From NCBI GenBank assembly GCA_947313765.1, contig CAMZNQ010000361.1, positions 1 through 11,164 on the forward strand: a stretch of DNA of 11,164 bases, written 5' to 3'. The notes beneath the pieces are model-generated. The model saw only the letters and a list, made by a program, of their open reading frames with translations. It was not told where the DNA came from and did no database searches. The position numbers and the translations under genes were made by a program. This stretch comes from an uncultured Sulfurovum sp. (GTDB lineage: Bacteria; Campylobacterota; Campylobacteria; Campylobacterales; Sulfurovaceae). Below are positions 2,120-9,942 of the stretch, piece by piece; positions within the stretch are counted from its first letter, which is position 1, and every line of letters begins with the position of its first letter.

Positions 2120-2155
2120 TTTTAATGTTTATTTTTGTATTTTTAATGTTTATTT
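2120..2155 (+). repeat. two perfect 15-nt direct repeats, 21 bp apart
   Basis: TTTTAATGTTTATTT occurs at 2120-2134 and again at 2141-2155 with all 15 bases identical. The 21-bp step is two helical turns, so both copies face the same side of the DNA. Relative to a start near 2182 they lie at about -62 to -48 and -41 to -27, upstream of the TATAAT at 2170-2175. This could be a tandem activator site or simply a strong T-wave promoter of the kind seen in Campylobacterota. Confidence 0.6.
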
Positions 2156-2169
2156 AAGTTAGCTTCTAT

Positions 2170-2175
2170 TATAAT
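2170..2175 (+). promoter_or_regulatory. -10 element for the 2181-2322 RNA
   Basis: A perfect TATAAT lies 6-7 nt before the first paired base of the RNA structure. It sits behind T-rich DNA with roughly helical periodicity. No plus-strand coding sequence starts within the next 700 nt, so it most likely serves the non-coding RNA. Confidence 0.6.
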
Positions 2176-2180
2176 TGTAC

Positions 2181-2322
2181 TTCAACGGCATATAGGTGAC
2201 ATTCTAACTCTCCCCTATTTCCTGAATTAGTATATGAGTTTCTGCAAAGAGGCTTATGTCTAACCCAATGTTTAGGATGTCATAGAGTATTATATTTTTT
2301 TAATATGTCGTTGAACTTTTTT
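2181..2322 (+). ncRNA. candidate structured small RNA, 6S-like rod architecture
   Basis: The plus strand folds into one long rod. The closing stem pairs 2181-2193 with 2303-2315 (13 bp) and is followed directly by a T6 tract (2317-2322), giving an intrinsic terminator. A middle stem pairs 2196-2207 with 2272-2283 (12 bp). An apical stem pairs 2227-2243 with 2248-2263 (16 bp, one bulge) under a GCAA tetraloop at 2244-2247. Between the middle and apical stems is an internal bubble, with 19 nt of C/U-rich 5' strand (2208-2226) against 8 nt (2264-2271). Seven of the 41 pairs are G-U, which would be A-C mismatches on the other strand, so the RNA is read on the plus strand. The length (~142 nt), single-rod shape, central bubble, own TATAAT and terminator resemble 6S RNA (ssrS). 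However, I cannot match conserved 6S primary sequence, and the large 3'-side bulge (2284-2302) is unusual. An SRP RNA is excluded because the conserved apical motif is missing. It is convergent with the asparaginase-like gene. Confidence 0.65.
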
Positions 2323-2338
2323 CATAAGAGAGTAAATC

Positions 2339-2833
2339 TTATTTTGTAGATTCAAAATATCCTTTTTCTTTGTTTTTGGTTACTCTTTTATGATTTTCCA
2401 TTCTACCATTCATAGAGATATGAACGCCTTTTTGATTGATTCCTAAGAGGTAGCCGTATGCTGATGAGAAATTTGCGGTTGCTTCTACGGAGTTTATAGA
2501 GTAGGGAACCATTGAACCTGTCAATACAATTTTTTTATCTAATTTCGCACTATCTAAATACTCTGCTGTTCTATCCATAGTATCTGTTCCATGAATAATA
2601 AGAGCTCTTTTTTTAGAACTATTTGTTATAATATCTAAAATCTCTTCTCTATCTTCATCTTTCATATCTAAACTATCTTTTCCGATTATGTTGATAACTT
2701 CAAATCTATTTAGCCAGAGTTTAGATATCTCTTTTAGGGCTTCTCCCTCTTTGTCAATATCTAACTCTCCTGTTATTGGATTATATACCTTGTTGAATGT
2801 TCCACCTGTATTGATAATTAATATTTTTTTCAT
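2339..2833 (-). CDS. single-domain asparaginase-like protein
   Basis: The 164-residue product matches the N-terminal domain of L-asparaginases (PF00710 type). NTGGTFNK (8-15) carries the nucleophile-position Thr12, Tyr17 lies in the following loop, DSLDM (53-57) is the substrate-binding segment, HGTDTMDRTA (81-90) carries Thr83-Asp84, and KIVLTGSMVP (101-110) carries the Lys of the second catalytic triad. Full-length asparaginases are about 330 residues and complete each active site with residues from the C-terminal domain of a neighbouring subunit. That domain is absent here, and 2001-2338 shows no remnant of it. The protein may be a distinct short family with altered assembly or ligand, so asparagine hydrolysis is not assured. 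The ATG at 2833 has AAGGA about 8 nt upstream. It is monocistronic and divergent from fabI. Confidence 0.8.
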   Translation of the reverse strand: MKKILIINTGGTFNKVYNPITGELDIDKEGEALKEISKLWLNRFEVINIIGKDSLDMKDEDREEILDIITNSSKKRALIIHGTDTMDRTAEYLDSAKLDKKIVLTGSMVPYSINSVEATANFSSAYGYLLGINQKGVHISMNGRMENHKRVTKNKEKGYFESTK

Positions 2834-6285: not shown

Positions 6286-7683
6286 ATGAAAATAGAAGAG
6301 ATAATAGAAAATAATCAAAATGGAATAGTTCTTTTCTTGGGTAGAGTTACAAATTTTAATACTCAAGAGCTAAAAAACTTTTTAGAATCACAAGGTATGA
6401 ACTATAGTAATAAGTATGGTGGAGAGAAGATTGCCATGACTGTACTTAGCACAATGGTTACTCCACTAGAAGAGGAGTACTCCTATGAGTTGTACGATAT
6501 GGGAGTGCCTGAAGTTCGTTTAGCTCAATTTGAGGAGTTCTACACAAAACATATTAAACCAAATACCCTTATGATGTCTCTTAAACTCTCAAATGACCAA
6601 GAGCGTCTAAAGCGTCTGCTTAAAAATAGTTCCTTTTCTGATGAGGTATATCTAAAACTATTTAAGATGTATAATTGGGGTGCAGATGGTGTTTATGAGA
6701 ATGATGATAATCGTGATGCAACCATAACTTTTGTAGAGCGTTTCTATAGACCTGATGGCTTTCGTGACCCTGCTATGGTATACTCTCCTATTACTTTGTC
6801 AAATATCGCTAGAGATGCAAAAACTTCAGATATTTTAGATGCAATGTTGACCATGCCTAACCATGAGATTAAACAGAGTCGTAAAGAGGATTTACGTCCT
6901 AAAAATCTTCGTGAAATAATAGCACTAAATCCAAACATCTCAAATGAAAATATACGCTACCTTTTGAGTTTTAATGATGATAGAATAAATAGTTTTTTAG
7001 CTTGTAATAGCTCCATAGGAGTAGAGGCACAGAGCGTTATCTTTGATGGCTCAAATGATATTGCAAAGCGTATGTTGACTCAAAATGATAGTTTGTCTGA
7101 TGATATTTTCAATAAGCTTCTTAAAGAGGGAGGGGAGATAGTTAGTTCACTATTAACTTTTCAGAAGATAACATCTAGTAGATTAGAGTCTATTTTAAAA
7201 GAGAACTTTTCTGATGAAATTCTCTCTTTTTTAGGAGAGAACCAACTCATAGATGAAGTCTCTTTAGAATTAATAGCAATAAATAGAACATTAGACTATA
7301 GACTCTCTTCCAATAAAAAGATTGATAAGTCTCTATTGGATAAGATATATAATATCTATGGAGATGAGTTTATAGTACCACTTAGTTCAAATCCAAATAT
7401 CTCTAAAAAGCTACTAAATAGGTTCTATCAATCTGAAGATAGAGAGGTCATCTTAAATATAGCCTCAAATAGAGCTACCCCAAAAGAGATTTTAACAGAG
7501 TTGTGCCAAAGAGATGAGCATGATATAAATTGTAGATTAGCCGTAAATCCATCAGTGGAGTTGGAGTATCTGCAACAGTTTGCCCTTAATACAGAGCTTA
7601 TTATGGTGATGAGTCAAAATGAGACATACATAGCAAGTGTAAATTCTGCACATTTAGGAATGAGAAGTGATGATAGATATTAA
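6286..7683 (+). CDS. hypothetical solenoid protein with ten ~26-residue LRV-like repeats
   Basis: No named family is recognised for this 465-residue cytosolic protein (no signal peptide or membrane segment). Residues 1-200 form a separate N-terminal region; GIVLFLGRVTNFNTQELKNF (13-32) faintly recalls the start of a BRCT domain, but this is weak. From about 213 the chain is regular. An Asn (or Gln) recurs at 215, 241, 267, 293(Q), 319, 343, 369, 395, 421 and 445, steps of 26 or 24. It often lies in NPxIS-like turns (ALNPNIS, SSNPNIS, AVNPSVE) followed by a helix with Leu/Ile spacing. This resembles the leucine-rich-repeat-variant (LRV) solenoid and suggests a protein-binding scaffold. The ATG at 6286 follows an extended -10 by 7 nt with no ribosome site. 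The 3' end overlaps the thioredoxin-like gene, so the two are coupled, and a MoxR-type ATPase follows. Confidence 0.8.
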   Translation: MKIEEIIENNQNGIVLFLGRVTNFNTQELKNFLESQGMNYSNKYGGEKIAMTVLSTMVTPLEEEYSYELYDMGVPEVRLAQFEEFYTKHIKPNTLMMSLKLSNDQERLKRLLKNSSFSDEVYLKLFKMYNWGADGVYENDDNRDATITFVERFYRPDGFRDPAMVYSPITLSNIARDAKTSDILDAMLTMPNHEIKQSRKEDLRPKNLREIIALNPNISNENIRYLLSFNDDRINSFLACNSSIGVEAQSVIFDGSNDIAKRMLTQNDSLSDDIFNKLLKEGGEIVSSLLTFQKITSSRLESILKENFSDEILSFLGENQLIDEVSLELIAINRTLDYRLSSNKKIDKSLLDKIYNIYGDEFIVPLSSNPNISKKLLNRFYQSEDREVILNIASNRATPKEILTELCQRDEHDINCRLAVNPSVELEYLQQFALNTELIMVMSQNETYIASVNSAHLGMRSDDRY

Positions 7684-8014: not shown

Positions 8015-9016
8015 ATGAGAGCAGAAGAGATAAAAAAGAGTTTAGATAGTTTGATAGAGTCTCAAATCCCTGTTTTTGTATGGGGAAGCCCAGGGATTGG
8101 AAAATCATCAATCATTAAAGAGATAGCATTAGATAAAGATTTAGAGTTTGTAGATTTACGTCTATCTCTACTTGACCCAACAGATTTAAAGGGAATTCCA
8201 TTTTTTGATAAAGATAACAATGAAGCAGTATGGGCAAGTCCAAACTTTTTACCAAAAGAGGCAAACTCTAAAGGTATTCTCTTTTTAGATGAGATAAATA
8301 CAGCTCCCCCATCTGTTCAAGCCTCTGCTTATCAGTTGGTACTTGACCGAAAAGTAGGAGATTATGAGTTACCAAAGGGTTGGAGTATTGTGGCTGCTGG
8401 TAATCATGAGAGTGATAGAGGTGTTGTCTATCGTATGCCACCACCACTTGCAAACCGTTTTGTTCATCTAAATATGGATGTCAGTTTTGATGATTGGAAA
8501 AGTTGGGCTTATGATAGTGGCATAGATAGTTCGATTATTGCATTCTTGCAATATGACTCTACAAAACTTTTTGATTTTGACCCATCTAAAAATGAGAAAT
8601 CGTTCCCTACACCACGCTCATGGGAGTACGTTCATAAGATTTTAGCTTCAGGTATTGAATCTACTCTATTGATAGATATTATCTCTGGAGCAGTTGGTGC
8701 AGAGAGTGCAACATCATTTATGAGTTTTAGAAAAGTTATGAATAGACTACCAAATATTGATAAACTTTTAAATGGAGATGATGTAGAGATTGAGCATGAT
8801 AGTCAAGTTCTGTTTGCACTTATTGCAGGTGTAGTTACAAACATTAAACAAAGCTCAACTAAAGAGAAGATAGATAATGCTCTAAAGTTCTCATTGAGCC
8901 TACCTAAAGAGTTCTCTGTGATGTTGGTTAAAGATATGCAACAAAACAGAATCAATGTAGAGGGTTCGGCTATTTGGGAAGATTGGGTTGAGGAGTTTGC
9001 CTATTTGTTGGTGTAG
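8015..9016 (+). CDS. MoxR-type AAA+ ATPase
   Basis: This 333-residue AAA_5/MoxR-like ATPase acts as a chaperone-like remodeller in the cytosol. Walker A is GSPGIGKS (24-31), Walker B is ILFLDEIN (88-95), and sensor 1 is AAGN (127-130). The arginine-finger region is PPPLANRF (Arg148), and PTPRSWE (199-203) is consistent with sensor 2. The DPTDLKGIPFF segment (54-64) and NTAPPSVQASAYQLVLDR (95-112) are typical of the MoxR branch that usually sits next to a VWA-type metal-binding protein. Here no such gene follows: the next gene is on the opposite strand and overlaps its last 16 nt. GGAG at 8003-8006 sits 8 nt before the ATG, inside the end of the thioredoxin gene, so the three genes are one operon. 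The target is unknown. Confidence 0.92.
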   Translation: MRAEEIKKSLDSLIESQIPVFVWGSPGIGKSSIIKEIALDKDLEFVDLRLSLLDPTDLKGIPFFDKDNNEAVWASPNFLPKEANSKGILFLDEINTAPPSVQASAYQLVLDRKVGDYELPKGWSIVAAGNHESDRGVVYRMPPPLANRFVHLNMDVSFDDWKSWAYDSGIDSSIIAFLQYDSTKLFDFDPSKNEKSFPTPRSWEYVHKILASGIESTLLIDIISGAVGAESATSFMSFRKVMNRLPNIDKLLNGDDVEIEHDSQVLFALIAGVVTNIKQSSTKEKIDNALKFSLSLPKEFSVMLVKDMQQNRINVEGSAIWEDWVEEFAYLLV

Positions 9017-9942
9017 TTCATACACTCTTTCTCTCGTGGATTTGGTGCATAGTTGGGTGTAGGTTTACAGCCAAATGAACTTTTTGACCATCTAAATTTA
9101 TCAAGCATTAATTTATAGTCTCTCATGCTTGGTAAAGTTCCTTCTGCTTCTATTTTTAAATATTTGCTATTAATCTCTTTTTTTGAAAAAATCATCTCTT
9201 TATTTTTACCCCTAAAAGTAAATGAAGCTAAATTAGTTATTGGTTCATAAATAGTTTTTTTTACTAACTCTCTAGGGTAAGGGTAGAAAATAGTTTGATG
9301 ATTTCCTCCTTCTTTAGCCATAATAAATGTTTTATGCTCTACATTTATATGTTTATACATATCTAAATAGATACGAGGGTCGGTAGAGTAGTCATCTTCA
9401 AAAAGTTCTGTGACAAAATTGGTGTTTTTTGGAAGTTTCATATTTTTTTGATGTTGAAAATCAATCCAAGGAGAAGCTCCCCAAATAAAACGACCATTTT
9501 CTCCTAATTTATCTTCTGTAAAGAGTTTATATCCTAAACTTGGAAGTATTCCTGCACCAGAGGAGTGTCCTGCAAGACCTATTCTCGTCTCATCTATAAT
9601 TCCTTTTTCATTACAAAATTTTTTTCCAAATAGTAGTGCATCATAAAAATGGTTCATAATATAGTCAGAAGCAAAACTTTGTGTAGACAAACCAACAACC
9701 ACATATCCTTGTTGGACTAAATGATGATAGAGATGTGTGTAAACTCTTCTATCTGTTGTTGCTGCTGATAGAAAAAAGATGGTTGGTTTTTTTACATTTT
9801 CTTCTTGATAATAGATACTGATACCCATTTTATTTTTATGTTTAACATTGATTGTTTCATGAAACTCTTTTATCTCATTTTTTTTATCACTACAAGCAAT
9901 GGTGTTGAAAATTATAATAAATAGAATTATGTAGTTTTTCAT
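9001..9942 (-). CDS. alpha/beta-hydrolase, probable lipoprotein
   Basis: This 313-residue predicted esterase or lipase-like enzyme has an N-terminal signal (MKNYIILFIIIFNTIAC) and a probable lipobox Cys17. The -3 position is Thr rather than Leu, so lipidation is likely but not certain. The hydrolase core shows PTIFFLSAATTDRRVY (oxyanion region), the nucleophile elbow GHSSG with Ser127 inside GLAGHSSGAG, an acid candidate in FEDDYSTD (181-188), and the His of GGNHQTI (His215). A C-terminal ~70 residues contain CKPTPNYAPNPREKEC with two Cys that could form a disulfide outside the cytoplasm. This resembles the dienelactone-hydrolase/PAF-acetylhydrolase-like superfamily, and the substrate is unknown. 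It starts 13 nt after ispE with AGAGAGA overlapping the ispE stop, so it is cotranscribed with ispE. Its end overlaps the convergent ATPase gene by 16 nt. Confidence 0.82.
   Translation of the reverse strand: MKNYIILFIIIFNTIACSDKKNEIKEFHETINVKHKNKMGISIYYQEENVKKPTIFFLSAATTDRRVYTHLYHHLVQQGYVVVGLSTQSFASDYIMNHFYDALLFGKKFCNEKGIIDETRIGLAGHSSGAGILPSLGYKLFTEDKLGENGRFIWGASPWIDFQHQKNMKLPKNTNFVTELFEDDYSTDPRIYLDMYKHINVEHKTFIMAKEGGNHQTIFYPYPRELVKKTIYEPITNLASFTFRGKNKEMIFSKKEINSKYLKIEAEGTLPSMRDYKLMLDKFRWSKSSFGCKPTPNYAPNPREKECMNYTNK

Follow-up and report, generated by a model that had tools for sequence, protein, structure and literature searches.

RepG of Helicobacter pylori, a small RNA (sRNA) of the Campylobacterota, has a C/U-rich loop, and the alphaproteobacterial 'cuckoo' RNAs carry the motif CCUCCUCCC. 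The RNase P RNA of cyanobacteria and Rickettsia contains inserted repeat elements that are repeated genome-wide. In Caulobacter, SisA-D are described as multi-copy sRNAs which are titrated by the sponge CrfA (PMC12559287). The 6S RNA of Campylobacter jejuni is reported to be 185 nt long, and the purD-upstream region of this species, once called a purine riboswitch, is described as 6S RNA, as in H. pylori (PMC3847290). The Rfam 'purD RNA motif' (RF01069), entered as cis-regulatory, corresponds to the locus so described (PMC3847290), and its label looks outdated.

The locus investigated here lies in a window (the whole stretch of DNA analysed, 11,164 nucleotides from an uncultured Sulfurovum sp.). 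On comparative sequence evidence, the structured RNA at positions 2181-2322 is a real, previously unlisted small RNA family. It resembles the 6S RNA of Campylobacterota in its rod shape with an internal bubble, in having a promoter of its own and in falling within a similar size range, but differs by its other locus, the lack of a match to the 6S models, a short form without the 6S layout and an element common with RNase P RNA. The features of the locus are as follows:

2141-2175, plus strand: conserved upstream block and -10 box (TATAAT at 2170-2175), from blocks common to the aligned upstream sequences.
2181-2322, plus strand: structured small RNA, long form, from fold, covariation and match to model R1.
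2181-2193, plus strand: closing stem, 5' arm, pairing with 2303-2315 in the predicted fold.
2196-2207, plus strand: inner helix, 5' arm, pairing with 2272-2283; 6 of 10 pairs changed on both sides.
2208-2230, plus strand: invariant element CTCTCCCCTATTTCCTGAATTAG with the core CCCCTATTTC at 2212-2221; 23 of 23 columns invariant.
2227-2263, plus strand: apical hairpin with GCAA loop at 2244-2247; pairs of helix 4 changed on both sides in 6 of 6; absent from the short form.
2303-2315, plus strand: closing stem, 3' arm, from predicted fold and covariation.
2317-2322, plus strand: T6 tract behind the closing stem, a possible terminator in this genome only.
2339-2833, minus strand: asnB, asparaginase N-terminal domain protein of 164 aa (PF00710), the constant neighbour.

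The sequence from 2180 to 2324 folded at -40.6 kcal/mol with 49 pairs, 9 of them G-U, into a rod that has a closing stem of 13 bp, further in a helix of 12 bp, and an apical hairpin of 4+12 bp ending in a GCAA loop; a small side hairpin completes the fold. The segment 2171-2335 had a z of -4.39, and equal stability was reached in 0 of 200 shuffles. The three nested stems of the first-pass annotation were thereby recovered (13, 12 and 4+12 bp); the seven G-U pairs it gave are those of its three stems, against the 9 of the whole 49-pair fold. The GCAA loop that caps its GNRA rod is present in the window's RNA, but apical loops varied in length and sequence among the homologs and the GNRA loop is not conserved. 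As it had stated, no protein explains the stretch; no open reading frame of at least 60 aa runs across 2181-2322. Neither tRNA nor tmRNA was found in the window. The proposed check against Rfam gave no match in the 2181-2322 stretch at E ≤ 5, and no family matched the homolog loci.

A DNA search of 100 relatives yielded 17 further genomes of one Sulfurovum-like genus with clear homologs, the other matches (E ≤ 1) being mostly short chance words. The covariance model R1, of which the window sequence is itself a part, matched at 2180-2324 with E 1.7e-21. It further matched 20 of 175 family genomes, all within the genus and with the short homologs of G023 and G031 already found, and 3 of 398 order genomes, namely two of the genus and one weak match judged to be chance. 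Model R2 gave matches in 13 of 397 relatives, none of them outside the genus, and G004 and G027 were new among these. The RNA is thus present in 29 of 34 genomes of the genus, as a long form of about 140 nt (n = 18, including the window's) or a short form of about 95 nt (n = 11). Two copies each were detected in G028 (354 nt apart, each with TATAAT) and G029 (77 nt apart); the second G029 copy displayed a different closing stem, still paired, and the same loop, without a TATAAT of its own. Two weak candidates were judged to be chance: L044 of G016, with 3 mismatches and lying against a 607-codon open frame, and L239 of G461, which at 27.6 bits (E 0.07) covered only the inner part of the model and had no closing stem. 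The RNA was not found in G003, G005, G007, G011 and G015; all five assemblies lack an intact asnB, and the listed completeness of G015 is 98%. No homolog was found in any other genus searched, which is not proof of absence since searches of more than 40 genomes were filtered more strictly, with 8-18 of the many candidates in each genome being scored; many of the genomes searched are also incomplete.

The conservation and covariation in relatives that the first-pass annotation had asked for were both found. In alignment A1 of the 18 long-form sequences (17 distinct), 98.2% of the cells pair and 13 of 30 pairs changed on both sides, against a shuffle mean of 6.5 that reached this value in 0 of 500 shuffles and against 1-4 in slid controls. 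RNAalifold alone returned the same 30 pairs. Helix 1 was paired in 100% of the cells with 1 of 11 pairs changed on both sides. Alignment A2 held 11 short copies from 9 genomes, the later-found copies of G004 and G027 being left out, and gave 8 of 20 pairs changed on both sides (shuffle mean 3.5, reached in 0 of 500); in the closing stem of the short form the count was 7 of 13. One control on A2 spoke against structure: in 499 of 500 shuffles the number of further pair types was no lower than in the alignment.

The TATAAT at 2170-2175, noted before as standing ahead of the first paired base (2181), precedes 29 of 31 copies. G013 has TACAAT instead, as does the second G029 copy, whose stem the box overlaps. 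The Campylobacterota sigma-70 promoter is described as a gnTAnaAT -10 box with T-rich spacing (PMC3847290), a pattern which the conserved sequences upstream of the small RNA fit. A generic promoter scan listed no sigma-70 promoter at the TATAAT because there is no -35 hexamer. Together with the covariation in both forms, the conserved box supports the earlier proposal of a structured RNA read from the plus strand behind a promoter of its own, and with the lack of an Rfam match it favours the option of a new Campylobacterota sRNA. The exact fit of promoter, RNA and terminator claimed at the same time did not extend to the family: the T6 at 2317-2322 has a counterpart of at least 6 T within 10 nt behind the closing stem in only 2 of 31 copies, and a generic scan found no terminator at the 2181-2322 locus, so that the exact T6 terminator was rejected as a family feature. 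A weak hairpin with a T-rich stretch, overlapping the opposite-strand end of asnB, was observed 42-50 nt downstream of the long form in 17 of 18 cases and after none of the 13 short copies. The 3' end of the small RNA is therefore placed tentatively.

In 27 of the 29 carrier genomes the RNA lies immediately 3' of asnB and is encoded on the opposite strand. Among the 17 homolog loci, asnB and fabI adjoin the RNA in all 17 and trpB is on the other side in 16 (not seen in L005), such that the RNA is stand-alone and intergenic between trpB and asnB in 16 of 17 loci as fetched. At the short-form loci fabI adjoins asnB in 9 of 9, and trpB was not matched at these nine. An asnB was found in 28 of the 34 genus genomes, with the long form alongside in 18 and the short form in 9; in G011 the contig ends inside asnB. 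G027 and G004 carry the RNA, and no asnB was found in their assemblies. The product of asnB comprises the asparaginase N-terminal domain only (PF00710 profile positions 1-163 of 193), with domain matches of similar length in 28 of 34 genus genomes. Elsewhere in the window, 6286-7680 (plus strand) and 9004-9942 (minus strand) encode proteins of 465 and 313 aa, neither of which matches a Pfam family; the former precedes a thioredoxin-like protein and an AAA ATPase.

The first-pass annotation had also suggested a divergent 6S RNA. In the window's own genome, however, RF01069 matched upstream of purD (L102 2937-3067, minus strand, E 1.2e-15), and neither RF00013 nor RF01069 matched at the candidate (E ≤ 5) or at the homolog loci (E ≤ 3). 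With this separate purD locus, a position beside asnB and no model match, the candidate was rejected as the 6S RNA of the genus. RF00013 matched the purD region of L114 and L112 below the cut-off and gave 6 matches at E ≤ 1 over 149 order genomes, none over the cut-off; its null result carries little weight either way because it also missed the purD locus of the own genome.

The most conserved part of the RNA is not a helix but the exposed stretch CUCUCCCCUAUUUCCUGAAUUAG (core CCCCUAUUUC). The element is unpaired in the predicted folds of both forms, except for the last 4 nt (TTAG) of the 2208-2230 element, which pair into the apical hairpin on its 3' side. Within the long form, the internal loop has CUCUCCCCUAUUUCCUGAAUUAG on its 5' side and the apical hairpin is inserted behind this stretch, and in the predicted folds of the short form UAUCCCCCUAUUUCUAAAUCG is the hairpin loop, so that the molecule consists of a stem with a 21-nt loop. 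In the long form 23 of 23 element columns were invariant, compared with 9 of 53 other unpaired columns; for the short form the counts were 20 of 21 and 0 of 17. Because the similarity that led to the 18 long-form loci included the element, its invariance there is partly a product of how the loci were chosen; the short forms are the fairer test, because nine of the eleven short genomes were reached via the position of asnB and not via the element.

Searching the exact 12-mer CTCCCCTATTTC on both strands of the 34 genus genomes gave 13 sites outside the two RNAs that carry it (the second is described below), compared with 21 for a reversed control, and a conserved full complement is therefore not present as far as an exact 12-mer search extends. 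Among 16 further 12-mer stretches (13 in the genus, 3 in the family), 15 were in or against open frames of at least 60 codons, the exception being L211 in G032. A third carrier of the element was also sought. In other genera, none of 30 loci (L131-L160) was recognised as rnpB or small RNA; among 42 18-mer stretches in named genomes 16 were the small RNA, 4 were rnpB and 22 were neither. A phage origin was dropped, as the 19-mer occurred in 0 viral contigs. For 5S rRNA, considered as a possible partner, a pattern search of the loci read out gave no 5S gene.

The second carrier is RNase P RNA, into which second matches to window positions 2208-2235 fell in several genomes. RF00010 identified 30 rnpB genes in 29 of the 34 genus genomes. 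The arm carrying the element, placed between conserved rnpB words, is one that we take to be P12. It is extended and contains CCCTATTTC in 18 of the 30 genes, in 15 of these as CCCCTATTTC. The genes without the element have a short arm in 11 of 30 cases, and one, that of G003 (L090), has an extended P12 region of unrelated sequence. G004 (L089, L094), with a listed contamination of 6%, has two rnpB genes, one with and one without the P12 element. All 18 element-bearing rnpB genes are found in genomes with the small RNA. This co-occurrence proves little, since nine small-RNA genomes have only the short P12 arm without the element and only two genomes (G003, G015) have rnpB without the small RNA. 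The longest word shared by the two RNAs of the same genome was 24 nt in G002, 20 nt in G006, G010, G021 and G032, 16 nt in G026, 15 nt in G020, 13 nt in G014, G016 and G017 and 10-12 nt in the remaining eight; with shuffle maxima of 10-14 over all genomes, the shortest words (10-12 nt) alone are not significant. Of five P12 arms folded, those of G000, G012, G014 and G024 left the core unpaired, and that of G006 paired it in part. Such an exposed element common to a small RNA and RNase P RNA was not found in a search of literature listings.

In a purD tree of 30 genomes the long forms make up the crown group, short forms with the P12 element are among the deeper branches, G028 (short) is located inside the crown, and the P12 element was lost or gained several times. 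This history of the forms is a lead only, because the tree was midpoint-rooted and leaves 8 of its 27 inner branches open. Over CCCCCTATTTCTAAAT the rnpB element of G024 is identical to the loop of the short form, although this genome's small RNA is a long form; this suggests a shared state that is older.

We read the RNA, with a probability of roughly 0.5, as a stand-alone, genus-restricted and trans-acting sRNA with its own sigma-70-type promoter, whose C/U-rich seed is also carried by RNase P RNA. What the compared genomes show directly is that the structure and the -10 box are conserved, that the element is invariant and shared with rnpB, and that the 6S locus is a separate one. The covarying rod would expose a single C/U-rich sequence (core CCCCUAUUUC), which most likely serves for base pairing, as a seed, with a partner rich in purines, for example G-rich mRNA leaders or another RNA. 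Because the element has the same sense in the small RNA and in RNase P RNA, the two cannot pair with each other through it, and a common third partner is the simplest functional reading; a base-pairing partner is favoured over a protein because the element is long and C-rich. RNase P RNA carries the same element in its extended P12 arm, and both RNAs would probably meet the same partner, which one of them may titrate from the other. We infer that the small RNA is expressed and acts by base pairing, and that it may compete with RNase P.

In a more tentative version, which we consider possible but somewhat unlikely, RNase P RNA itself would use the P12 arm as a built-in guide or sponge to catch an mRNA, an sRNA or a protein, and the small RNA would mimic the arm and compete with it, so that tRNA processing and gene regulation would be coupled. 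Instead of a seed, the element may be a protein-binding site in both RNAs: a single-strand RNA-binding protein with a place on the P12 arm would also be sequestered or carried by the small RNA. The common sense of the element, which calls for a third party, agrees with such a site, as do the core unpaired in 4 of 5 folded P12 arms and its place as the loop of the short form; the single site per RNA, however, sets this case apart from RNAs that titrate proteins through many sites, and we regard this explanation as unlikely. Rather improbable is that the sharing with rnpB is a relic of sequence transfer by gene conversion with no shared function, the small RNA working independently. The longest identities (15-24 nt) are confined to one group of genomes (G002, G006, G010, G020, G021, G026, G032) and 11 of 30 rnpB genes do not have the P12 element, but rnpB retains the core on deep as well as crown branches as the adjoining P12 sequence changes, a pattern more in keeping with selection than with a single transfer.

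That the structure is merely a cis-acting part of asnB, the 3' end or terminator of its mRNA with no separate RNA, is very improbable. In each of the 27 genomes that could be read for both, it follows immediately on the stop codon of asnB, but the conserved -10 box is on the opposite strand, the invariance is in the loop and not only in the stem, and G027 and G004 have the RNA without a detected asnB (which may be assembly loss). An extra 6S-like RNA beside that of purD, mimicking an open promoter and binding RNA polymerase, is the least credible explanation: the rod with a large internal loop recalls the 6S layout of closing stem, central bubble and apical arm in the long form, but RF00013 and RF01069 do not match, the genome already has a 6S locus, the short form consists of a stem and its hairpin loop with no apical arm beyond a bubble, and an element common with RNase P RNA is not expected of 6S RNA.

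The preferred reading, a trans-acting sRNA with a seed shared by RNase P RNA, places the family beside RepG as another sRNA of the Campylobacterota, a likeness by description only; it differs from RepG in that the loop is a fixed mixed sequence and not a run, and in that the element is also present in RNase P RNA. The C-rich-loop sRNAs and their sponges ('cuckoo' RNAs; SisA-D with CrfA) likewise combine multi-copy sRNAs with a titrating RNA, but they belong to another phylum and have other sequences, and their antagonist is a sponge sRNA, whereas the second carrier of the element here is the RNase P ribozyme, in the same sense. As in cyanobacteria and Rickettsia, a variable arm of RNase P RNA holds extra sequence; unlike the repeats there, the exact 12-mer has no more additional sites in the genus than the reversed control pattern. 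The Sulfurovum-like Campylobacterota have a small RNA family without an Rfam match, and if the shared element is functional, a housekeeping ribozyme would take part in recognition of the kind used by sRNAs.
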